Assembly: GCF_011492945.1 (NCBI RefSeq)
Contig: NZ_CP045119.1
Span: 1,364,001 to 1,428,000, forward strand
Reading direction: 5' to 3'
Length of the DNA stretch: 64,000 nucleotides
From: Rubrobacter tropicus
Lineage (GTDB): Bacteria > Actinomycetota > Rubrobacteria > Rubrobacterales > Rubrobacteraceae
Shown: in pieces, positions 9,164 to 45,025 of the stretch
Position numbering within the stretch: position 1 is the first letter of the stretch
How the letters are laid out: each line of letters opens with the position of its first letter
Notes under the pieces: generated by a model
Databases searched by the model: none
What the model was told of the DNA's origin: nothing
The model's input: the letters and a program-made list of their open reading frames with translations, nothing else
Made by a program: the position numbers and the translations under genes

Positions 9164-9613
9164 ATGCAGGTGATACTGACCCAGGACGTGGACAAGATAG
9201 GCCAGAGGGGCGATATCGTGGACGTTAGCCGCGGCTACGTCCGCAACTTCCTGGTCCCCCGCAACCTCGCCGAGGTCGCGACGCCGGGCAAGATGGAAGA
9301 GGCCCGCCGCGAGATGGCCGAGAGCGAGGAGCGGGACCGCCGCCTCGCCGAGCGCGCCGAGGAGATCGCCGCGACCCTGAACAAGAGCGTGATCACCATC
9401 GAGGCCCGCACCGGCGAGGACGAGCGCCTCTTCGGCTCCGTCACCGCCGCGAACGTCGCCGACGCCGTCGAGAAGGCCCGCGGAGTCCGGATCGACCGGC
9501 GCAGGGTCCGCATGGACGAGCCCATAAAGTCCCTCGGCACCCACCAGGTCCCGATCCAGGTCCACGGCGACGTCGAAGCCAGCGTCAAGGTCATCGTCGT
9601 CCCCAAACTGTAG
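9164..9613 (+). CDS. rplI: 50S ribosomal protein L9
   Basis: 149 residues. The N-terminal domain MQVILTQDVDKIGQRGDIVDV and the motif GYVRNFLVPRNLA are diagnostic of L9, followed by the long connecting helix and the C-terminal rRNA-binding domain ending GDVEASVKVIVV. L9 binds 23S rRNA at the base of the L1 stalk and helps maintain reading frame. The gene starts 6 nt after rpsR and ends the operon; a hairpin repeat and an intrinsic terminator follow. Confidence 0.96.
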   Translation: MQVILTQDVDKIGQRGDIVDVSRGYVRNFLVPRNLAEVATPGKMEEARREMAESEERDRRLAERAEEIAATLNKSVITIEARTGEDERLFGSVTAANVADAVEKARGVRIDRRRVRMDEPIKSLGTHQVPIQVHGDVEASVKVIVVPKL

Positions 9614-9616
9614 CCG

Positions 9617-9682
9617 GCGGTTCGTGCAGCGAACCGCGCTTTCAGCTTTCGGCCGTCAGCTTTTTTTGTTCTGCTGACGGCC
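9617..9682 (+). repeat. Post-stop modular repeat, copy G (two hairpins)
   Basis: A mini-hairpin GCGGTTCG/CGAACCGC (9617-9637) is followed by the linker CTTTCAGC, then a perfect 10-bp inverted repeat GGCCGTCAGC (9651-9660) and GCTGACGGCC (9673-9682) with seven Ts in its loop. It begins four bases after the rplI stop. The TTTCAGC and GTCAGC words are the building blocks of the family described at 21790-22140. Confidence 0.65.
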
Positions 9683-9777
9683 CGGCCTCTTGCCGGAACG
9701 CTTGTCCTCCCGGGATACCTCGGGAGGGGTGGGTGTAGTTGAGGTGTAGGTTTATGTATGACCTGGACCAGAAGGTG

Positions 9778-14020: not shown

Positions 14021-14056
14021 CGCTGACAAGCTGAAGCGCTGACCGGCTGACAAGCT
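14021..14056 (+). repeat. Post-stop repeat, copy A (GCTGACAAGCT direct repeat)
   Basis: GCTGACAAGCT occurs at 14022-14032 and 14046-14056, with GCGCTGACC between. It lies between the convergent dnaB and fabI genes; its right end supplies the fabI stop codon (CTA, 14055-14057). The rest of the 86-bp dnaB-fabI gap shows nothing else. Confidence 0.5.
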
Positions 14057-14834
14057 ACCTGATCTTCGTCCCCATGGCGTGGTACCCACCATCGACGTGA
14101 ATGAGCTCCCCGGTGGTCGCGGGCCACCAGTCGGAGAGGAGGCTCACCACCGCCCGCCCGACCGGCTCGGGGTTCGTCGTCTCCCATCCCAGGGGCGCCT
14201 GCCTGCCCCACTCGCCCTCTATCTCCTCGAAGCCGCTGATGCCCTTGGCGGCCAGGGTTTTTACTGGGCCTGCCGAGACCAGGTTCACCCTGATGCCCTT
14301 CTCGCCAAGATCGCGGGCGAGGTAGCGGGAGGTAGACTCCAGGGCCGCCTTTGCCACGCCCATCCAGTCGTAGGAGGGCCAGGCCACGCGGGCGTCGAAG
14401 TCGAGGCCGACGACGGAGGCCCCTGGTTTCATCAGGTCCGAGAGGCCGACGGTAAGAGCCTTCAACGAATAGGCCGACGTCTGGACGGCCGTCGCGACCG
14501 AGGGCCACTCGGCCGTGAGGAAGTTGCCGCCGAGGGCGTCCTCGGGGGCGAAGGCGATGGCGTGGACGACGCCGTGGACCTGCCCCCAGCGTTCTTTCAG
14601 GTCGGCGGCGACGGCCTCGATGTCCTCGGGCTTGTTGACGTCCAGCTCAAGAATGGGGGGCTGGGGATCCAGCTTTCTCGCTGTCCTTTCGGTGAGGCTG
14701 CGGGCGCGGCCGAAGCTGCTCAGAACCACCTCCGCGCCCTGTTCGGCCGCCAGCCGCGCCGCTGAGTAGGCTATGGACCGGCGGTCCAGGACACCCGTAA
14801 CCAGCACCTTCTTGCCTTCTAGCAGTCCAGACAT
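14055..14834 (-). CDS. fabI: Enoyl-[acyl-carrier-protein] reductase (NADH), InhA-like
   Basis: 259 residues from ATG 14834, preceded by GGGAGG. The enzyme carries out the last reduction of each fatty-acid elongation cycle in the cytoplasm. The Rossmann start LLEGKKVLVTGVLDRRSIAY and FabI-type motif SYDWMGVAKAALES with Tyr155 and Lys162 (Y-x6-K) are visible. The GLDFDARVAWPSYDWM region and VSAGPVKTLA closely follow mycobacterial InhA, which supports an actinobacterial origin. An upstream in-frame start is possible but lacks a ribosome site. The gene is convergent with dnaB and followed upstream by a MITE-like repeat. Confidence 0.93.
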   Translation of the reverse strand: MSGLLEGKKVLVTGVLDRRSIAYSAARLAAEQGAEVVLSSFGRARSLTERTARKLDPQPPILELDVNKPEDIEAVAADLKERWGQVHGVVHAIAFAPEDALGGNFLTAEWPSVATAVQTSAYSLKALTVGLSDLMKPGASVVGLDFDARVAWPSYDWMGVAKAALESTSRYLARDLGEKGIRVNLVSAGPVKTLAAKGISGFEEIEGEWGRQAPLGWETTNPEPVGRAVVSLLSDWWPATTGELIHVDGGYHAMGTKIR

Positions 14835-14900
14835 CTCGCCTCCCGGGGCTTCGTCCCTCACAAAGTCCGGCACAGTCTACGGAAAGAGCAAAGAGCTTTC

Positions 14901-15059
14901 AGCGGTCAGCTATCAGCCAGTCGTCTCGATCCGTCACGCCGCCCGTTGCCCGAACCGTCGGATATGGCGCCGCCCGGTGGGGACCTGGGCGGCAAGAAGC
15001 TGACAGCTGATAGCGAGGGGCTGCAAAGCAGGCCCGACGCGTGCTGATAGCTGACCGCT
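14901..15059 (+). repeat. MITE-like element, copy B, with 17-bp perfect terminal inverted repeats
   Basis: AGCGGTCAGCTATCAGC (14901-14917) and its exact reverse complement (15043-15059) bound a 159-bp element. The interior 14918-14998 is the conserved core: RTCGTC at its left end, CGTCACG at offset 14, CCCGGT at offset 55 and GGCAA at offset 73. These blocks sit at the same offsets (within one base) in copies C and D. The right arm contains GCGAGGGGCTGCAAAGCAGG. The element ends exactly where the sulfatase stop codon (CTA, 15060-15062) begins. No reading frame is evident inside. Confidence 0.8.
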
Positions 15060-17012
15060 CTACTCGGTCGTCTCCTCCTGCGGGCGTTGCTGCTCGTAGG
15101 AGTCCGTGACGCGGGCCTCCCAGGCCAGCAGGTCGTCCCGGAGGTCCTCTATCTTCTTGTCGCCCTGCTCTTCGATCAGGTTTTTCTTCTCTTCGGGATC
15201 TTCCGAGAGGTCGTAGTACTCCTCGCCGCGGTTGCCGTAGGAGTAGATGTACTTCTTATCCCCGTCGATGCTCGCCAGGCAGGTGCGCTCGTGGTAGCAA
15301 CTCGCCACGAGCCTTCGGTCCTCCGGCGGAGAGAGAAGCGAGAAGCCGGGGTAGTCGCCGCCTTCCACCCTGTACCCGAGCATGTCGGCGACCGTCGGCA
15401 GGACGTCGAGTTCGTTGACGTTCTCCTCGACGCGTCGCGGTTCGGGGTTCTTGGGATCGTGGACGAGGAGGGGGATGTGGAGGCCTTCCTGGTAGATCGT
15501 GTTGTCGTGCTGCTTGAGGCCGTGTTCGCCGAAACCCTCGCCGTGGTCGCCCAGGATCACGAATATGGTGTCCTCGTAGAGCCCGAGGTCCTTGTACTGG
15601 TCGAAGAGCTTCTCCAGAAAGAAGTCCTGGTAACGGACGGTGTTCAGGTACCTGTTCAACTCCGGGTCTGACGAGTACTTCTTCGTGCCGTAGCGCTGCG
15701 GGACCACGTAGTTGTGGTGGGGGGTGACCGTCAGGTACGTGGTCATGAACGGGCCGTCGTCGGCGTTCTCTTCGAGCCAGGCGCGGCTGGGCTTCAGCAT
15801 GATCTCGTCCTCGAACCCGAAGTAGTTGACGCGCTGGTAACCCGTCTTGCTCATGTCCTCTATCGCCTGGAAGTGCCCGTACCCGAAGTTGTCCACGAGC
15901 TGGGGCCTGCGCTCGAAGGTCTCGGTGGCCGACTGGAAGAAGGCGCTGTTGTAGCCCTGCTCTTCCAGGAGCTCCGGCAAACACCGGGCCGGGATGATGC
16001 CAGGCTCGGACTCCGTCTTCTGGGTGTCGAGGGGCGGAGGCACCCCGCAGGCGGTCGCCACCAGCGCCTTTGAGGTGTGCGGGACCACGGCGTGGGCCCG
16101 CTCCGCCATCAGGCTCTCTTCGGAGAGTTCGTCCAGGAACGGCGTCGTGTCGATCTCGTCGTTGTACGCGGTCGTCGATTCCGCGCGCGTCGACTCGAGG
16201 AAGACCAACACCACGTTTCGTTTCTCGGTCTCGGGCGTGGGGGAGAGGCTCGTGTCCGTCGGGAGGGATTCCGGGGAGACGTTCGCCTCGACCTCCGTCG
16301 TGGCGACCTCGTTGACCACCATGTTCGCCAACGGGTCCCTGGCGAAGGCGTTGCCCGCGTTGGTCACGCTCGGCACTACCGAAAGGGAGAAGAGCAGGAC
16401 GGCGGCCAGGCCGACGGTGAGCGGGGCCCGGCCCGGGCTCCCCGGGGCGTCCGGCTGGGGATCCCAGGTGCCGGTAAACAGGCGGGTCAGCAGGGCCGGG
16501 CCCGCGAGGGTGTAGAAGAGGATGACGGAGACCAGGGCCCAGTGCAGGGTCGTCGTCTCCGAGCCGATGGCGCCCTGGATCTCCCCGATCGAGGAGATCG
16601 AGACGAGCACGAAGCTCAGGTCCAGCGTCGAGCCCGTGGTCGTGTAGAAGAAGTGGGCGCTGGTGGTCAGGATCACGACCACCACGACGGCGAGGTGAAA
16701 CAGGATCAGGACCGCGCGCCTGGGCCAGCCGCCCCTCACGACGGCGAAGACGCCGATCCAGAGCGCCGCGAACCCGAGGTTGAAGAGGAGGTCGGAACGG
16801 ACCTGATCCAGAAAACCGAGAAAGCCGGGCGGGTCCGGACGGGTGACTATGCGGACCACTTTGAGCACGAGGTTGTAGACGACCAGGGGCACGAGTAAGC
16901 TCGCGAGGTAGATCCAATCCCCACGCGTCAACAACCTGTCGAGGCGCTTCACGACGCCCGCCCTGCCTTCGTTTGCCGCCTCAAATGCGGCAGAGTTTAA
17001 CAAAATTTTCAC
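15060..17012 (-). CDS. LtaS-like membrane sulfatase / phosphoglycerol transferase family protein
   Basis: 650 residues. About five membrane helices fill residues 35-240, followed by an extracytoplasmic sulfatase-fold domain. The metal site is visible as NVVLVFLESTRAEST (nucleophile Thr or Ser region) and later VILGDHGEGFGEHG (Asp-His pair). The architecture matches lipoteichoic-acid synthase and related polymer-modifying enzymes, which transfer phosphoglycerol or phosphoethanolamine, or hydrolyse sulfate esters. The substrate is not known. GTG 17012 is given as start; GTG 16952 (VKRLDRLLTRGDW) is an alternative because TTAAACT between the two could be a -10 box. The acs gene diverges from it. 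Confidence 0.8.
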   Translation of the reverse strand: MKILLNSAAFEAANEGRAGVVKRLDRLLTRGDWIYLASLLVPLVVYNLVLKVVRIVTRPDPPGFLGFLDQVRSDLLFNLGFAALWIGVFAVVRGGWPRRAVLILFHLAVVVVVILTTSAHFFYTTTGSTLDLSFVLVSISSIGEIQGAIGSETTTLHWALVSVILFYTLAGPALLTRLFTGTWDPQPDAPGSPGRAPLTVGLAAVLLFSLSVVPSVTNAGNAFARDPLANMVVNEVATTEVEANVSPESLPTDTSLSPTPETEKRNVVLVFLESTRAESTTAYNDEIDTTPFLDELSEESLMAERAHAVVPHTSKALVATACGVPPPLDTQKTESEPGIIPARCLPELLEEQGYNSAFFQSATETFERRPQLVDNFGYGHFQAIEDMSKTGYQRVNYFGFEDEIMLKPSRAWLEENADDGPFMTTYLTVTPHHNYVVPQRYGTKKYSSDPELNRYLNTVRYQDFFLEKLFDQYKDLGLYEDTIFVILGDHGEGFGEHGLKQHDNTIYQEGLHIPLLVHDPKNPEPRRVEENVNELDVLPTVADMLGYRVEGGDYPGFSLLSPPEDRRLVASCYHERTCLASIDGDKKYIYSYGNRGEEYYDLSEDPEEKKNLIEEQGDKKIEDLRDDLLAWEARVTDSYEQQRPQEETTE

Positions 17013-20169: not shown

Positions 20170-20790
20170 ATGGAAGACGTTCGTCGGATAACGAAGAGGC
20201 GGCGCAGGCTCCGGACCGTGGGGGAGCCGCACCCGTGGGAGCCCCGCCACATGCGCCTGGCGGGCGTGCGCGTCGCCGAGTCGGTTGGGAAGCCGGCGGC
20301 CCGGCGCAACGTCACTTTGGGCGTCGTGAAGCACCTCTGGCGCTCCCCGGTCCCCTTCGTCGGGTTCTACCCGCCCGAGGGCGTCAAGGTCACCGAGCAC
20401 CGCAAGTACGTCCCCCGGTCGCCGCGGCGGGTGGACGACACCGAGTACCTGGCCGGCGTCGAGGCCCACAAGAGGTCCTTCGCCAAAGACCTCCAGGACG
20501 GCATGGTCCCGTCAGGACACCTTCCGGGCTACTTCGAGGTGCCGACCGACGAGGGGTGGCGGATCACCCTGGATCTCGTAGAGGGACGGCTGGAACTGGC
20601 AGACGCCTGGGGGCTCGGAACCGAGTCGAAGGTGGCCGGGGACCTCGCCCCCTTCGTCTGGGCTTACAGGCATTGCGGCTTCTGCATCGTCAGCGTCTAC
20701 GACAAGGACGTCGACGGCCTGCGCGACGACCTCCTCTTCGTCGCCAAACGCCAGGGCGTGGAACTCAGGTGGACCAGAAAGGCCGCTTAA
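20170..20790 (+). CDS. Conserved hypothetical protein
   Basis: 206 residues from ATG 20170. No signal peptide or membrane helix is present. The N-terminus is strongly basic (RRITKRRRRLRTVGE), and the middle contains PFVGFYPPEGVKVTEHRKYVPR and HLPGYFEVPTDEGWRITLDLVEG. The C-terminal HCGFCIVSVYDKDVDGLRDDL has two cysteines. I do not recognise the family. Base composition and codon use match the neighbours. The start follows an extended -10 box by nine bases, suggesting a very short or missing leader. A repeat element begins two bases after its stop codon. Confidence 0.6.
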   Translation: MEDVRRITKRRRRLRTVGEPHPWEPRHMRLAGVRVAESVGKPAARRNVTLGVVKHLWRSPVPFVGFYPPEGVKVTEHRKYVPRSPRRVDDTEYLAGVEAHKRSFAKDLQDGMVPSGHLPGYFEVPTDEGWRITLDLVEGRLELADAWGLGTESKVAGDLAPFVWAYRHCGFCIVSVYDKDVDGLRDDLLFVAKRQGVELRWTRKAA

Positions 20791-20791
20791 G

Positions 20792-20873
20792 AGCGGTCAG
20801 CTATCAGCGCGCTCCGGCTTCGCCTCCGCTCTCAGCCATCAGCAAAAGCCAAGCGAGCTGAAAGCTGACCGCT
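20792..20873 (+). repeat. Post-stop repeat, copy F, same 17-bp terminus as copy B
   Basis: AGCGGTCAGCTATCAGC (20792-20808) is identical to the left end of copy B; the right end GCTGAAAGCTGACCGCT (20857-20873) matches it inverted in 16 of 17 positions. Inside is one mini-hairpin module, GCGCTCCGGC TTC GCCTCCGC, then TCTCAGCC. The 80-bp core is missing. It begins one base after a TAA stop codon. Confidence 0.7.
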
Positions 20874-20994
20874 GAAAGCTGGCAGCGCGATTCGCGGAGC
20901 AAATCGCCACAAACAAGAGCGCTTACAGGAACGATTCTCAAAAAAGTACACCTAAAGATGCATCTGGTGGGCGCGAGGCGTTAGAATGTTTGGG

Positions 20995-21789: not shown

Positions 21790-22140
21790 CGCCGGCAAAG
21801 CCGGCGCGCACGCTGCGCCCTTCGGGCTCCGCTTTCAGCCCGGCGCCGTTGGCGCCTTGTCAGCACGCTCCAGCCTTCGGCTTCCACTCTCAGCACGCCT
21901 CCCTGCGGGAGGCTTTCAGCCCAGTCGTCCGTAGGCGTCACGCTTTATGACACTCGAATCGCAGCGCCATACGTGGCCCGGTTGGGCTTCGCACGGCAAA
22001 AAGCTGAAAGCGGAGGCGCAGCCGGAGCGGGCTGAGAGCGAGGACTGCGAAGCAGGCCGATGCCTGCCGAAAGCGAAGCCCTTAGGGCGCAGCGTGCCGA
22101 AAGCTCGCGAAGCGAGCGTGCTGCGCCGGAAACCTTTCCG
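21790..22140 (+). repeat. Modular inverted-repeat element, copy C (mini-hairpin arms around an 80-bp core)
   Basis: This gene-free stretch of about 350 bp starts right after the regulator stop codon. The left arm is a chain of mini-hairpins (for example GGCGCC/GGCGCC, CCTCC/GGGAGG) joined by linkers of the type T-T/G/C-TCAGC. The core (21922-22001, 80 bp) has CAGTCGTC, CGTCACG at offset 14, CCCGGT at 55 and GGCAA at 73. The right arm carries inverted modules (GCTGAAAGC, GCTGAGAGCGAGGACTGCG, AGCAGGCC). Bases 21861-21898 match 41613-41650 of copy D, inverted, in about 35 of 38 positions. No coding capacity is seen. Confidence 0.75.
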
Positions 22141-30399: not shown

Positions 30400-30400
30400 A

Positions 30401-31438
30401 TTGGCGACGTTGAACGGCGCGAACGACGCCATCCTGCAGGTAAAGGACCTGCGCATCTCCTTCTCAACCTACGCCGGCGAGGTGCAGGCCGTGAGGGGCG
30501 CCTCTTTCGACCTCCGTAGGGGCGAGACGCTGGCGATCGTCGGTGAGTCCGGCTCGGGAAAGTCGGTCGCGGCGAGAAGCATTATGAGGTTGAACCCGCC
30601 GGCCAACACCCTGGTTCGGGGGGGCGAGATCCTCTTCGAGGGTGAGGACATCCTCAAGCATTCCGAGAGACGGATGCAGGGCATCAGGGGGCCGAAGATA
30701 GCGATGGTCTTCCAGGACCCTATGACCTCCCTCGACCCGACGATGCGGGTCGGACGCCAGATCTCGGAGAGCCTCACCAAGCACCTCGGGATGAAGGGTC
30801 GCCGGGCGACGGAGCGCGCGGTGGAGCTTCTGAAGCTGGTCGGCATCCCGAACGCCGAGGAGCGCGTCAAGCAGTACCCGCACCAGTTCTCGGGCGGGAT
30901 GCGCCAGAGGGTCGTCATAGCCATCGCGCTCTCGTGCGACCCGCAGATACTCATAGCCGACGAGCCGACGACGGCCCTCGACGTCACGATCCAGGCCCAG
31001 ATCCTGGACCTCATGCGCGAGTTGCAGGACAGGATAGGGACTTCCATCATCCTGATCACGCACGACCTCGGCGTCGTCGCGAGCACGGCCCACCGCGTCG
31101 CCGTCATGTACGGCGGCAGGATCGTCGAGACTGGAACGGTCCGCGAGATCTTCTACAACCCCCAGATGCCGTACACCTGGGGCTTGCTGGCCTCGATCCC
31201 GCTCCCCAACGCCGACAGGAGCCAGGAGCTCATACCGATCCCCGGCACCCCTCCCAACGCCCTCGACCCGCCGAAGGGCTGCCCGTTCACGGCCCGCTGC
31301 CCCTACGCCATGAAGGTCTGCGAGGGTGAGATGCCAGACAAGACCACGTTCTCGAACGAACACTGGGCCGCCTGCTGGCTGCACCACCCGATGGCCCCGA
31401 AGGGCGAGCCCCCGGTCCGGGTCAGGGGGCAGCGATGA
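30401..31438 (+). CDS. Peptide ABC transporter ATP-binding protein, DppD/OppD type
   Basis: 345 residues from TTG 30401, one base after the permease stop. Walker [10 protein letters not shown], signature FSGGMRQRV, Walker [13 protein letters not shown] and H-loop LITHD are all present. The C-terminal oligopeptide-transporter extension has the cysteine pattern [15 protein letters not shown], which in related proteins binds an iron-sulfur cluster. It powers transport as a heterodimer with the next gene product; the four-base overlap ATGA couples their synthesis. Confidence 0.94.
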
Positions 31439-32439
31439 CGGACGGGACCACGAACGGCGGCCCGAACGGGAGCGCGAACGGGCAGGCGCTGCTCCAGGTC
31501 AAGGACCTGAAGAAGCACTTCCACGTCGGGCGCGGGGCAATGCTCAAGGCCGTGGACGGGATCTCACTTGAGATAAAGAAAGGCGAGACCTTCGGCCTGG
31601 TGGGCGAGTCGGGGTGCGGCAAATCGACCGCCGGGCGGACCCTGATCCGGCTCTACGAGCCATCGGGCGGCCAGATCGTCTACGGCGGCAGGGACATCAG
31701 CCAGGCGACGGGCGAAGAGGCGCATTCTCTCAAGCGCAAGATGCAGATGATCTTCCAGGACCCCCAGGCCTCCCTGAACCCGCGCATGGTAGTCGGCGAC
31801 ATCGTCGCCGAGGGCATCGACATCCACGGCCTCGCGGACAGCACGAAAGAGCGCAACGACCGGGTCCAGGAGCTCCTGGAAACGGTCGGCCTGAACCGGG
31901 AGCACGCCAACCGCTACCCGCACGAGTTTTCCGGGGGACAGCGCCAGAGGATCGGGATAGCGAGGGCTCTGGCCGTCGACCCCGACTTCATAGTGGCCGA
32001 CGAGCCGGTCTCCGCCCTCGACGTCTCCATTCAAGCGCAGGTGATCAACCTGATGAAGAAGCTCCAGAGGGAGCGCAACCTCACCTACATGTTTATCTCC
32101 CACGACCTCTCGGTGGTGAAGTACATAAGCGACCGCGTGGGCGTCATGTACCTGGGCGTGATGGTCGAGATGGCCCCGAGCGACGAGTTGTACTCGAACC
32201 CGGTCCACCCTTACACCCAGGCCCTGCTCTCGGCGGTCCCGGTCCCCGACCCGGACGTGGAGAACGAGCGGGAGCGGATGGTGCTCGAAGGCGACGTACC
32301 GAGCCCGGTGAACCCGCCTTCTGGTTGCCGCTTCCGCACCCGCTGCCCCTACGCGACCGAGGCCTGCGCCCACGACGAGCCGGTCTGGCGCGAGGTCAGC
32401 CCGGAGCACTGGGTCGCCGCCTGCCACTGCATCGACTGA
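31435..32439 (+). CDS. Peptide ABC transporter ATP-binding protein, DppF/OppF type
   Basis: 334 residues. Walker [10 protein letters not shown], signature FSGGQRQRI, Walker [14 protein letters not shown]-loop FISHD. The DppF-type C-terminal extension with [15 protein letters not shown] holds conserved cysteines. It is the last gene of the first peptide-transport operon. The unusual N-terminus is a glycine/asparagine-rich tail ([12 protein letters not shown]) before the ABC domain, also seen in the paralogue at 38090. Confidence 0.94.
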
Positions 32440-32452
32440 AATAAAGGTTTCG

Positions 32453-36989: not shown

Positions 36990-37073
36990 GCTGGATGCGC
37001 TGGCCGGGACGCCGCCGCTGCTGTAGTCTTCGCGGGAGTCGTGGGGTTCGTCCGGGAGAGGAGGCGTAGTCCG

Positions 37074-38093
37074 GTGGCGATGCTGGAGGTGAACAACCTC
37101 AAGACGCACTTTTCGACCCAGGACGGGGTCGTCAAGGCCGTGGACGGGGTCTCGTACTCGCTGGAGCCCGGAGAGACCCTGGGGATAGTGGGGGAGTCCG
37201 GGAGCGGCAAGAGCGTGACGGCGCTCTCGGTCATGCAGCTAAACCCCAAGCCGCCCGCCTCGTACCCGGAGGGTGAGATCCTCTTCGAGGGCCAGGACCT
37301 CCTCAAGGTGCCCGAGAAGAGGATGCAAGAGATCCGGGGCAACGACATAGCCATGATCTTCCAGGACCCCATGACGAGCCTCAACCCGGTCTTTACCGTC
37401 GGAAACCAGATCCGGGAGGCCATCCGCATCCACCAGGACGTCTCGAAGTCCGAGGCGTCCGAGAAGACCGTCCAGGTTCTGAAAGACGTAGGGATAGCCA
37501 ACCCCGAGCGCAGGGCGAAAGAGTACCCGCACCAGTTCTCCGGCGGGATGCGCCAGCGGGCCATGATCGCGATGGCGCTCTCGTGCAACCCGAAGGTCCT
37601 CATAGCCGACGAGCCTACGACGGCGCTCGACGTGACGATCCAGGCCCAGATCCTGGAGCTGATGGTGGACTTGCAGGAGAAGTACGGCACCGCGATCGTC
37701 ATGATCACGCACGACCTCGGAGTCGTCTCCCAGATAGCCGACAAGGTGATGGTCATGTACGCGGGCCGCGCCGTCGAGCAGGCGACCACCGACGACGTCT
37801 TCTACGACCCGCTGATGCCGTACTCGTGGAGCCTGCTTCGGAGCCTGCCGCGCCTCGACACCGCTGGCGAGGTGAGGCTGCTCCCGATAGAGGGTACGCC
37901 GCCGTCCCTGATCTTCCTCCCCGACGGCTGCAACTTCCACCCCCGCTGCCCGTTCGCCAAGGACGAGTGCCGCACGGTGGACCCCGCGCTAGAAGAGAAG
38001 AAGCCGGGCCACGAGGCGGCGTGCATCCTCTCTGTGGAGGAGATAGAAGCGAGCAAGAGCCGCGTGGACCAGGAGCTGGGGGTCGGGGGATGA
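37074..38093 (+). CDS. Peptide ABC transporter ATP-binding protein, DppD type
   Basis: 339 residues from GTG 37074, eight bases after GAGAGGAGG. Walker [10 protein letters not shown], signature FSGGMRQRA, Walker [14 protein letters not shown]-loop MITHD. The C-terminal [14 protein letters not shown] motif is the oligopeptide-transporter extension with conserved cysteines. Overlaps the next gene by ATGA. Confidence 0.94.
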
Positions 38094-39163
38094 CCGAGGC
38101 CGTGGCCACGAACGGGAGCCCGAACGGTCGTCCCGCCGAGAACCTGCTGGAGATGCGGAACCTGAAGATGCACTTCCCGATCAAGGCGGGCGTCTTGAGG
38201 CGGACGGTGGGCCACGTCAAGGCGGTCGACGGGGTCGACCTCGCCATCCGCAAGGGCGAGACTTTGGGCCTCGTCGGCGAGTCCGGCTGCGGCAAGAGCA
38301 CGCTCGCCCGCCTCGTCCTGCGCCTGCTCGAACCGACTGAGGGCGAGGTCCTGTTCGACGGCGAGAACATCCTCGGCTTCGACCGCAAGCGGATGCTCGG
38401 CGTCAGGCGCAACATGCAGATCATCTTCCAGGACCCCTACGCCTCCCTGAACCCCCGCATGTCCGTGGGCAACATCATCGCCGAGCCCCTGAAAACGCAC
38501 GACGTCGGCGATGGCCCCGGGCGCAAGAAACGGGTGCAGGAACTCCTCGAGGTCGTCGGCCTCAGCCCCGAGCACTACAACCGCTACCCGCACGAGTTCT
38601 CGGGCGGCCAGCGCCAGAGGATCGGGGTCGCCAGGGCCATAGCGCTGAACCCGCGCCTCATAATCTGCGACGAGCCGGTGAGCGCGCTTGACGTCTCGAT
38701 CCAGGCCCAGGTCGTGAACCTGCTCCAGGACCTCCAGAAAGAGTTCGACCTCACCTACGTCTTCATAGCCCACGACCTCTCCGTCGTGAAGCACATCTCG
38801 GATCGGGTCGCGGTCATGTACCTCGGCAAGATCGTGGAGGTCGCCGACCGCAAGGACCTCTACGACCACCCCCGCCACCCCTACACCGCCTCGCTCCTCT
38901 CGGCGATCCCGGTCCCGGACCCCCGCAAGGAGCGCGAGCGCAGGCGCGTGGTCCTGACCGGCGACGTGCCGAGTCCCGCCAACCCGCCTTCGGGCTGCCA
39001 CTTCCACACCCGCTGCCCCCGCGCCCAGGACTACTGCAAACAGAACGAGCCGCCCCTGGAGCCCCAGGAGAGCGAAGACCACCGCGCCGCCTGCTTCTTC
39101 CCCGTAAAAGAGGGGCAGAGGATAGACGATGCAGCCACGAGCACGCCATACCGCGTCGAATAG
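38090..39163 (+). CDS. Peptide ABC transporter ATP-binding protein, DppF type
   Basis: 357 residues. Walker [10 protein letters not shown], signature FSGGQRQRI, Walker [14 protein letters not shown]-loop FIAHD. The cysteine-containing extension is [15 protein letters not shown]. Like the OppF paralogue at 31435 it has an Asn/Gly-rich N-terminal tail ([10 protein letters not shown]). It closes the second peptide operon; a repeat element follows its TAG stop with only 12 bases between. Confidence 0.94.
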
Positions 39164-39175
39164 CTGTCAGCTTTT

Positions 39176-39316
39176 AGCAATCAGCCGTCAGCTTCTCGGA
39201 GGACGGCGAAAGATTCTGTCGTCCGGAGAAAAGCTTCTTGCCGGAGGTACTTCGGATCTTGTTCCCGTAGCGGTCGCGCTTTGCGCGGCGTGGCTGAGGG
39301 CTGAGGGCTGATTGCT
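39176..39316 (+). repeat. Post-stop repeat, copy E, 141 bp with near-perfect 17-bp inverted ends
   Basis: AGCAATCAGCCGTCAGC (39176-39192) and GCTGAGGGCTGATTGCT (39300-39316) match inverted in 16 of 17 positions. The stop codon of the DppF-type gene lies in TAGCTGTCAGC just before it. The interior has GTCGTCCGG and a GC-rich stem near 39270-39290 but not the core spacing of copies B, C and D. The right end reaches the promoter region of the next gene. Confidence 0.65.
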
Positions 39317-39329
39317 GACGGCTTGCTAG

Positions 39330-39335
39330 TACAAT
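39330..39335 (+). promoter_or_regulatory. -10 box of the S41 protease gene
   Basis: TACAAT six bases before GTG 39342; no ribosome site precedes that codon. The mRNA is probably leaderless. Confidence 0.6.
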
Positions 39336-41379: not shown

Positions 41380-41671
41380 CGGGCTCCTCCCTTCGGTCGT
41401 CGCGCACGCTCCGGCTTACGCCTCCGCTTGTCAGCCCGGCGCTTCGCGCCTCGTCAGCACGCCCTCTCCGAGGGCTTTCAGCCTATCAGCCAATCGTCTT
41501 GGCGCGTTACGGCTTCGCGACATCTGAACCGACGCGCGACTCGCGGCCCGGTCGGGCCCTCGACGGTAAATAGCTGACCGCTGAGAGCGAGGACCTGCGG
41601 AGCAGGCCCGAAGCGTGCTGAAAGCGGAAGCCGAGGGCTGGAGCGTGCTGAAAGCCCGCGAAGCGGGCGTG
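41380..41671 (+). repeat. Modular inverted-repeat element, copy D, between two convergent stop codons
   Basis: The 292-bp space is filled by this element. It begins after the small-protein stop codon and ends at the rpoD stop codon (CTA, 41672-41674). Left-arm modules include GCTCCGGC TTAC GCCTCCGC-TTGTCAGC, GGCGC TTC GCGCC and CCCTC TCC GAGGG-CTTTCAGC. The core (41491-41571, 81 bp) has CAATCGTC, CGTTACG at offset 14, CCCGGT at 56 and GGTAA at 74. The right arm carries inverted modules and AGCGAGGACCTGCGGAGCAGG, the counterpart of copies B and C. Confidence 0.78.
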
Positions 41672-43676: not shown

Positions 43677-44933
43677 ATGAACCTTTCCCTGGGACGGACG
43701 TTCTCTGACTTGCGAAGGCTGGCTTTCAGGCTCTTTCTCGCCCTGACGGCGGTGCAGGCGGCCGTCGTCGGCGTGCTGGTGGCCATGGCGCAACTGCGCA
43801 AGCGCCGCGCGGGCCCGCAGGGGGGCTTTCCCTGGGAGGACCAGCCGGAGGTCTCGCTGAAAGGGGGGGACAGGCTCAAGCTCTACCCTTACGGCGTCCA
43901 GCTCTACGACGCGATGCTCGAGGACATCCGAAACGCGAAGAAGAGCATCTACGTCGGCACCTTCATCTGGAAGGGGGACGAGGTCGGAAAGCGATTCGTG
44001 GAGGCGCTGGCCGAGAAGGCGCGGGAGGGGGTCCTGGTCTGCGTGATCTTCGACGGCCTCGCCAACGTCTTCGTCTCCCCCGAGTTCAAGGACTTCCCAA
44101 AGGAGATAAACACGCTCCACTTCCGGCCGCTCTGGGGGCCCGAGAACCTCGCCAACCCGCGCAACGTCTTCCGGTACCACAAGCACATCATGAGCGTGGA
44201 CGGGGAGATCGGCTTCGTCGGCGGCTACAACATCGGCTCGCTCTACGCGGAGAGCTGGCGCGACACGCACATCCGCATCGAGGGGCCCGACGCCCGCGAG
44301 ATCGAGAACGACCTCGTCGATTTCTGGAACGACCACCGTACCGCCGGCCTTCCGGAGCTCGGGCTTGCCGGGAAGCGCGCGTGGAACTCGGACACCATGT
44401 TCCACAGGAACGACCCGTTCATGAGGATGTTCCCCATACGGGCCATGTACATCGAGGCGATAGACCGCGCCAACAGCCACATCTACCTGACCCACGCCTA
44501 CTTCATCCCCGACAGGGCGATGCGCGCCGGCCTCATAGAGGCGGTCAAGAGGGGGGTGGACGTGCAGGTTCTCGTGCCCGAGCACTCCAACCACGTAACG
44601 GCCGACTGGCTCGCCAGACGCCACTTCAGGGAGCTTCTGGAGGCGGGGGTCAGGATCCACCTCTACAAGCACATGATGATCCACTCCAAGACAGCCACCA
44701 TAGACGGTGTCTGGTCGACGGTCGGCACGGCGAACATCGACCGCTACAGCCTGCTCGGCAACTACGAGACGAACCTCGAGGTCTACAGCGAAGACCTCGC
44801 CGACCAGATGGAGAGGATGTTCGAGCTCGACAAGACGAACGCGCGTGAGATCACGGCCGAAGAATGGGACCGCCGCCCCCTCCCCGCGAAGGTGGTCGAA
44901 CGCGTCCTCGCCTCTTTGAGCCCGCTGGTCTAG
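43677..44933 (+). CDS. Phospholipase D-family cardiolipin synthase-like protein with an altered first HKD motif
   Basis: 418 residues: one N-terminal helix (about 17-38), then two PLD domains. The second motif is canonical (HSKTATID: H336, K338, D343). The first reads HKHIMSVD followed by GEIGFVGGYN: His168 and Asp175 are present but the lysine position (170) is His. Flanking GGxN and the spacing are otherwise intact. The family makes cardiolipin or moves phosphatidyl groups at the membrane. The altered site could change the nucleophile partner or substrate. The gene begins with a leaderless-type -10 box and is abutted at its stop codon by a repeat. Confidence 0.85.
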   Translation: MNLSLGRTFSDLRRLAFRLFLALTAVQAAVVGVLVAMAQLRKRRAGPQGGFPWEDQPEVSLKGGDRLKLYPYGVQLYDAMLEDIRNAKKSIYVGTFIWKGDEVGKRFVEALAEKAREGVLVCVIFDGLANVFVSPEFKDFPKEINTLHFRPLWGPENLANPRNVFRYHKHIMSVDGEIGFVGGYNIGSLYAESWRDTHIRIEGPDAREIENDLVDFWNDHRTAGLPELGLAGKRAWNSDTMFHRNDPFMRMFPIRAMYIEAIDRANSHIYLTHAYFIPDRAMRAGLIEAVKRGVDVQVLVPEHSNHVTADWLARRHFRELLEAGVRIHLYKHMMIHSKTATIDGVWSTVGTANIDRYSLLGNYETNLEVYSEDLADQMERMFELDKTNAREITAEEWDRRPLPAKVVERVLASLSPLV

Positions 44934-45025
44934 AGGCTACAGGTCGCCCGCTTCGCGGGCTTTCAGGCTTCAGGGGTGGTCGGCGGTGTAAAGCCCCGAT
45001 CGCGCACCCCTGAAGCCTGTAGCCT
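44934..45025 (+). repeat. Post-stop inverted repeat, copy H, CTACAGGCTTCAGG type
   Basis: Starts on the base after the PLD-gene stop codon. The right arm (45005-45025) is the reverse complement of AGGCTACAGG plus CTTCAGGGGTG; the left arm carries the same two parts at 44934-44943 and 44965-44978, separated by a mini-hairpin module GCCCGC TTC GCGGGC-TTTCAG. That module is also in copy D (inverted near 41651-41668). A shorter copy of the arm is at 32453-32468. Confidence 0.72.

Follow-up and report, generated by a model that had tools for sequence, protein, structure and literature searches.

Inverted heptad elements of Rubrobacter tropicus lie just behind stop codons and are candidate REP-like mobile elements

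REPs are dispersed extragenic palindromes located downstream of genes, mostly in tandem and convergent gaps, and those with GTAG and CGTC tags often supply a TAG stop (PMC3733652). The heptameric repeats of Xanthomonas and Nostoc (PMC4692102) are intergenic repeats of a 7-nt unit that lie on the coding strand, near or overlapping stop codons; CTGA-containing heptamers are represented by the TAACTGA repeats of Beggiatoaceae, which are also intergenic and occur in several phyla (PMC4679880). MITEs are small non-coding inverted-repeat insertions that show presence/absence differences between relatives. All these traits recur in the repeats of Rubrobacter tropicus analyzed here. For REPs and heptamer repeats, a position on the stop side is an established feature, usually attributed to lack of room or to an RNA function.

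The window (the whole 64,000-nt stretch of the R. tropicus genome that was analyzed) contains eight element clusters according to an unbiased detection, in which a cluster is defined by repeated intergenic 9-mers, and each of these lies at a gene end. The original prediction was that such repeats are placed right after stop codons; every place cited in its support is confirmed in the window, and the pattern extends genome-wide, as judged from 1.6 Mb. The two-arm element at 44934..45025, with CAGG-type heptads, a mini-hairpin insert and the arms GGCTACAGG..CTTCAGGGGTG / CACCCCTGAAGCCTGTAGCC, starts right behind the TAG stop at 44931-44933. Another two-arm element, 20791..20912, directly follows a TAA stop ending at 20790 (its start can be set at 20791 or 20792). 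A long element with a core (14894..15059) adjoins the minus-strand stop at 15060-15062, and the long element 41380..41671 fills the entire gap between two convergent stops. In the short one-arm element 14022..14057, the repeat word TAGCTTGTCAGC includes the fabI stop itself (TAG, 14055-14057, minus strand). Three further elements, noted at 9617, 21790 and 39176, are an element with a leading hairpin (9614..9733), a long composite of hairpin modules, heptads and a core (21790..22123), many scattered partial copies of which are present in the same genome, and a two-arm element (39162..39330), the first AGC of which overlaps the TAG stop at 39161-39163. With the leading hairpins included, these three lie 0-3 nt behind TAG stops ending at 9613, 21789 and 39163; by repeated words alone, the distances are 23, 37 and -2 nt, the element edges being approximate because hairpin modules reach past the repeated words.

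The core of about 150 nt at 14906-15054 of the window has at least 35 dispersed copies in the genome (70-89% identity) and next to none in congeners. Apart from the elements, the minus strand at 2330-2800 encodes repeats that, by eye, resemble glycine-/aspartate-rich calcium-binding (RTX-type) units, and two similar sets of ABC transporter genes, at 30400-32440 and 37040-39163, neighbor each other and share about 74% DNA identity.

The gaps show a 7-nt period, with the unit AG[C/G]NNTC. The full design, AG[C/G](NNTCAG[C/G])n - loop - ([C/G]CTGANN)n[C/G]CT, consists of two arms of heptads facing each other, with a median element hull of 87 nt; many arms are interrupted by mini-hairpins, e.g., GCCCGCTTCGCGGGC, and by the longer core, and the base preceding the terminal AGC is mixed. 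The polarity is strict: the TCAG arm comes first in 39 cases and second in none in this genome, it leads in 36 of the 36 tandem gaps with both arms, and one-arm copies near convergent stops follow the same polarity (35 vs 3). Copies are mosaic, so that part of 20791-20912 matches elsewhere at 98% over 51 nt and longer stretches match at 75-85%. The strong 7-nt period might suggest simple heptamer repeats produced by polymerase slippage, given that heptamers are the commonest among long simple repeats of many bacteria (PMC4679880). However, adjacent units vary at NN while TCAGC stays constant, the arms form an inverted pair of constant polarity, and entire elements of about 115-145 nt arise at once, all of which makes slippage highly improbable. 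Another candidate explanation, that the arrays supply backup stop codons given that a period of 7 places TGA in three frames, is rejected: it is the TCAGC arm that adjoins the stop, and this arm offers no TGA in the sense of the gene, so the polarity is opposite to the one required.

The placement was quantified in 1.6 Mb of the 4.58 Mb genome, where a gene-calling script trained on the same 1.6 Mb yields 1446 genes (about 86% coding). In this sample, 301 element clusters, with approximate edges, occupy 281 of the 1197 gaps, and called genes contain only 32 clusters although most of the sequence is genic. Elements are found in 58% of the convergent gaps (98/170), as against 19% of the tandem (162/855) and 12% of the divergent ones (21/172). 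The original prediction called for a comparison of distances from element edges to stops and to starts, and in tandem gaps these are clearly non-uniform: the median is 7 nt from the upstream stop to the element edge and 81 nt to the next start. The stop-side gap is the shorter one for 139 of the 177 tandem elements (p 1e-14), and 55% of the elements lie within 12 nt of the stop, compared to 23% +/- 2.4% when elements are placed uniformly in those gaps (maximum among 2000 nulls, 31%). The excess persists when only high-scoring flanking genes of at least 600 nt are considered (55% near the stop vs 28% in the null) and when each gap is represented by a single hull (60% vs 27%). These data bear on the notion that the elements are a neutral leftover, i.e., that they insert at random and survive only in the free space between a stop and the next promoter or ribosome-binding site. 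Such a process would be compatible with the avoidance of coding sequence and starts, and with the short spacers of relatives, but the stop-side excess survives when the last 30, 60, 80 or 100 nt ahead of the start are closed to placement (46-50% vs 15-20% in the null), as it does in other phyla with 15-30 nt closed off, so that a purely neutral origin of the pattern appears quite unlikely.

The stops themselves are biased in this genome. Of the 75 stops directly adjoining an element (-5 to 0 nt), 62 are TAG, compared to 382 of 837 in element-free gaps (p 4e-10), and fixed stop registers recur, such as TAG|CTTTCAGC, GCTAG|TCAGC and TAG|AGGTTTCAGG. At the orthologous sites that were read letter by letter, the stop is present without the element and is therefore independent of it at those sites. 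Across phyla, the three stops are equally frequent beside elements, so TAG is no general requirement. Over the 1.6 Mb analyzed, more gaps are preceded by TAG than by any other stop (603/1195), despite the 67% G+C of the genome.

Comparison with draft genomes of congeners bears on how the elements came to occupy these sites. The 20791-20912 element is missing in seven congeners, with the stop unmoved; loss in relatives would be possible for single sites but is implausible for seven out of seven. The gap that holds 14894-15059 is 186 nt long in R. tropicus, and its counterpart in G001 and G004 measures about 41 nt (by match coordinates, not letters), so that at least two congeners lack most of this element. 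At the 9614-9733 site, where TGTAG occurs at either edge of the R. tropicus element, G005 has the two flanks joined (likewise by match coordinates). The site at 44934 is empty in G004, occupied by a diverged two-arm version in G003 and G005 and by a one-arm version in G002 and G008; at the 39162..39330 site, the same stop is present in G004. Gain of an element behind an unmoved stop, in a lineage-specific manner, can thus be read directly from relatives and, like the design, the polarity and the placement, is a matter of observation. Heptad arrays are also common with G004 in 7 of 27 element gaps, compared to 1 of 76 other gaps (p 3e-4), and at these shared sites the words have drifted, e.g., from CAGG to TAGG or GAGG. 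Given the empty, diverged and shared orthologous sites, some element sites are young and others old. The findings directly support insertion into, or retention in, stop-proximal DNA, with which targeting and selection both fit; of the three readings offered by the original prediction, it is this one that has direct support, through the empty orthologous sites with unmoved stops and the stop-side excess that persists when the stretch ahead of the start is closed to placement.

Copy numbers also differ sharply: the pattern (GCTGANN)2GCTGA has 394 matches in R. tropicus, 0-12 per genome among eight congeners and, here and there elsewhere in the phylum, as many as 73. A genome pattern scan identifies at least 120 stretches with the inverted heptad design (L116-L235), most of them from MAGs; among the matches listed are Nitrospirota, Planctomycetota, Acidobacteria, Bacteroidales, Omnitrophota, Chloroflexi, Cyanobacteria, Deltaproteobacteria and others. 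The polarity of this set is not independent evidence because the search pattern, an inverted repeat, required the TCAGC arm to lead, but placement was not a selection criterion. Among the tandem loci listed, the median distance is 7 nt to the stop and 32 nt to the start; 69% of these tandem loci lie within 12 nt of a stop, compared to 34% in the null, and the difference holds if placement within 15-30 nt of the start is disallowed (59-66% vs 25-40%). Convergent gaps show no clear preference in this selected set. The loci listed carry fixed TCAGC words with free NN between them. Both a shared ancestry and separate origins of the design would fit its occurrence in these phyla. One element (L180:859-913) lies on a contig of a MAG labelled Klebsiella pneumoniae, which is possibly misbinned.

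The predicted folding of the elements is strong (median z of -3.0 in silico, vs -0.4 for control gaps), which follows largely from the inverted arms. Covariation of NN does not demonstrate an RNA stem across phyla, where complementarity between the arms is at chance (0.464 vs 0.460 +/- 0.019); in R. tropicus it partly holds (0.636 vs 0.488). The folding, the convergent-gap enrichment, the arm polarity relative to the stop and the sites common to congeners with drifted words would all be expected of a functional 3'-end element, a hairpin that protects mRNA, modulates the termination of translation or terminates transcription, either with Rho or, in convergent gaps, in both directions, and is kept behind stops by selection; in addition, canonical intrinsic terminators are few in this genome, near background, and Rho is present. 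This explanation is nevertheless rather unlikely, considering that seven congeners do without the element at 20791, that copy number ranges more than thirtyfold within the genus, that the NN positions are non-complementary across phyla, and that the U-tract is absent. As for the last point, the original prediction included 3'-end formation, but in its intrinsic form this is not supported by the sequence following the element, where TTTT occurs within 12 nt in only 5 of 74 and 2 of 57 cases; with both the U-tract and NN pairing between the arms across phyla missing, a classical intrinsic terminator is unlikely. Rho loading by a TC every 7 nt is possible for this genome, where Rho_N is found; against it, cyanobacterial loci carry the element too, and most cyanobacteria are not known to have a canonical Rho. 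An effect on translation termination is possible by analogy, given a report, cited in PMC12306157, that E. coli REPs within 15 nt of the stop down-regulate translation. mRNA protection, another reading of the original prediction, is possible in view of the strong folding; a benefit of the element to host mRNA is unproven.

Taken together, the observations are best compatible, with moderate confidence, with a REP-like mobile non-coding element that enters the 3' edge of genes and is retained there. Under the mobile-element reading, an activity in trans would insert copies; those that interfere with coding sequence, ribosome-binding sites or promoters would be lost; and an additional stop-side preference, arising either at insertion or through selection on the hairpin in the transcript, would leave the survivors a few bases from the stop, so that clean insertions would yield new copies found almost only just behind stop codons. 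This reading accommodates the empty orthologous sites with unchanged stops, the excess of matches over the eight congeners, the dispersed long-type copies, the fixed polarity and the same placement in other phyla. On the other side, profile searches of the genome found no mobilizing gene, neither a reverse transcriptase domain (PF00078) nor a RAYT-type Y1 transposase (PF01797, E 0.001, with matches in control genomes); direct repeats at element edges are not in excess, with TGTAG at both edges of a single site, so that target-site duplication is not apparent. Furthermore, maintenance fits at least as well for the drifted-word sites common to G004 and other congeners, and element gaps are on average not longer than their G004 orthologs (median 178 vs 192 nt). 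A bolder form of the proposal, which is possible but doubtful, is that inverted AGCNNTC arrays with strict polarity and unpaired NN constitute an undescribed class of mobile elements in many phyla, inserted at stops by an activity that is neither RAYT nor reverse transcriptase. The question raised is whether a novel mobilizer recognizes gene ends or whether selection on 3' flanks is common to these genomes, and it is testable because the same heptad grammar and stop spacing are found in distant phyla.

With respect to known systems, the elements agree with REPs as dispersed extragenic palindromes that prefer tandem and convergent gaps downstream of genes. In contrast to REPs, which are units of 20-40 nt with a terminal GTAG or CGTC tag, they are longer, composite arrays of 7-nt units with free NN, in a genome without a RAYT-type transposase. 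The latter is a weak criterion, since many genomes reported to have REPs likewise lack RAYT. The heptameric repeats of Xanthomonas and Nostoc differ in being quadruplex-forming direct repeats rich in G (GGGAATC, GGGGATT), as opposed to inverted AGCNNTC arrays, and those of Beggiatoaceae are direct, lie mostly just upstream of starts and have no second inverted arm. Heptameric simple repeats in general consist of near-identical tandem units, whereas here the period is 7 but two positions vary per unit. MITEs are set apart by transposase terminal repeats and general target-site duplication, neither of which was identified at the heptad elements, whose copies moreover are mosaic; intrinsic terminators, by the U-tract that follows their hairpin. 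An Rfam scan of the window at the gathering score detects only a tRNA. The inverted AGCNNTC design was not found in the literature searched, which left most subscription literature outside its scope, so it may have been described already. In sum, the placement resembles that of known REPs and heptamer repeats, and neither the heptad design nor its distribution over many phyla appears to have been described.
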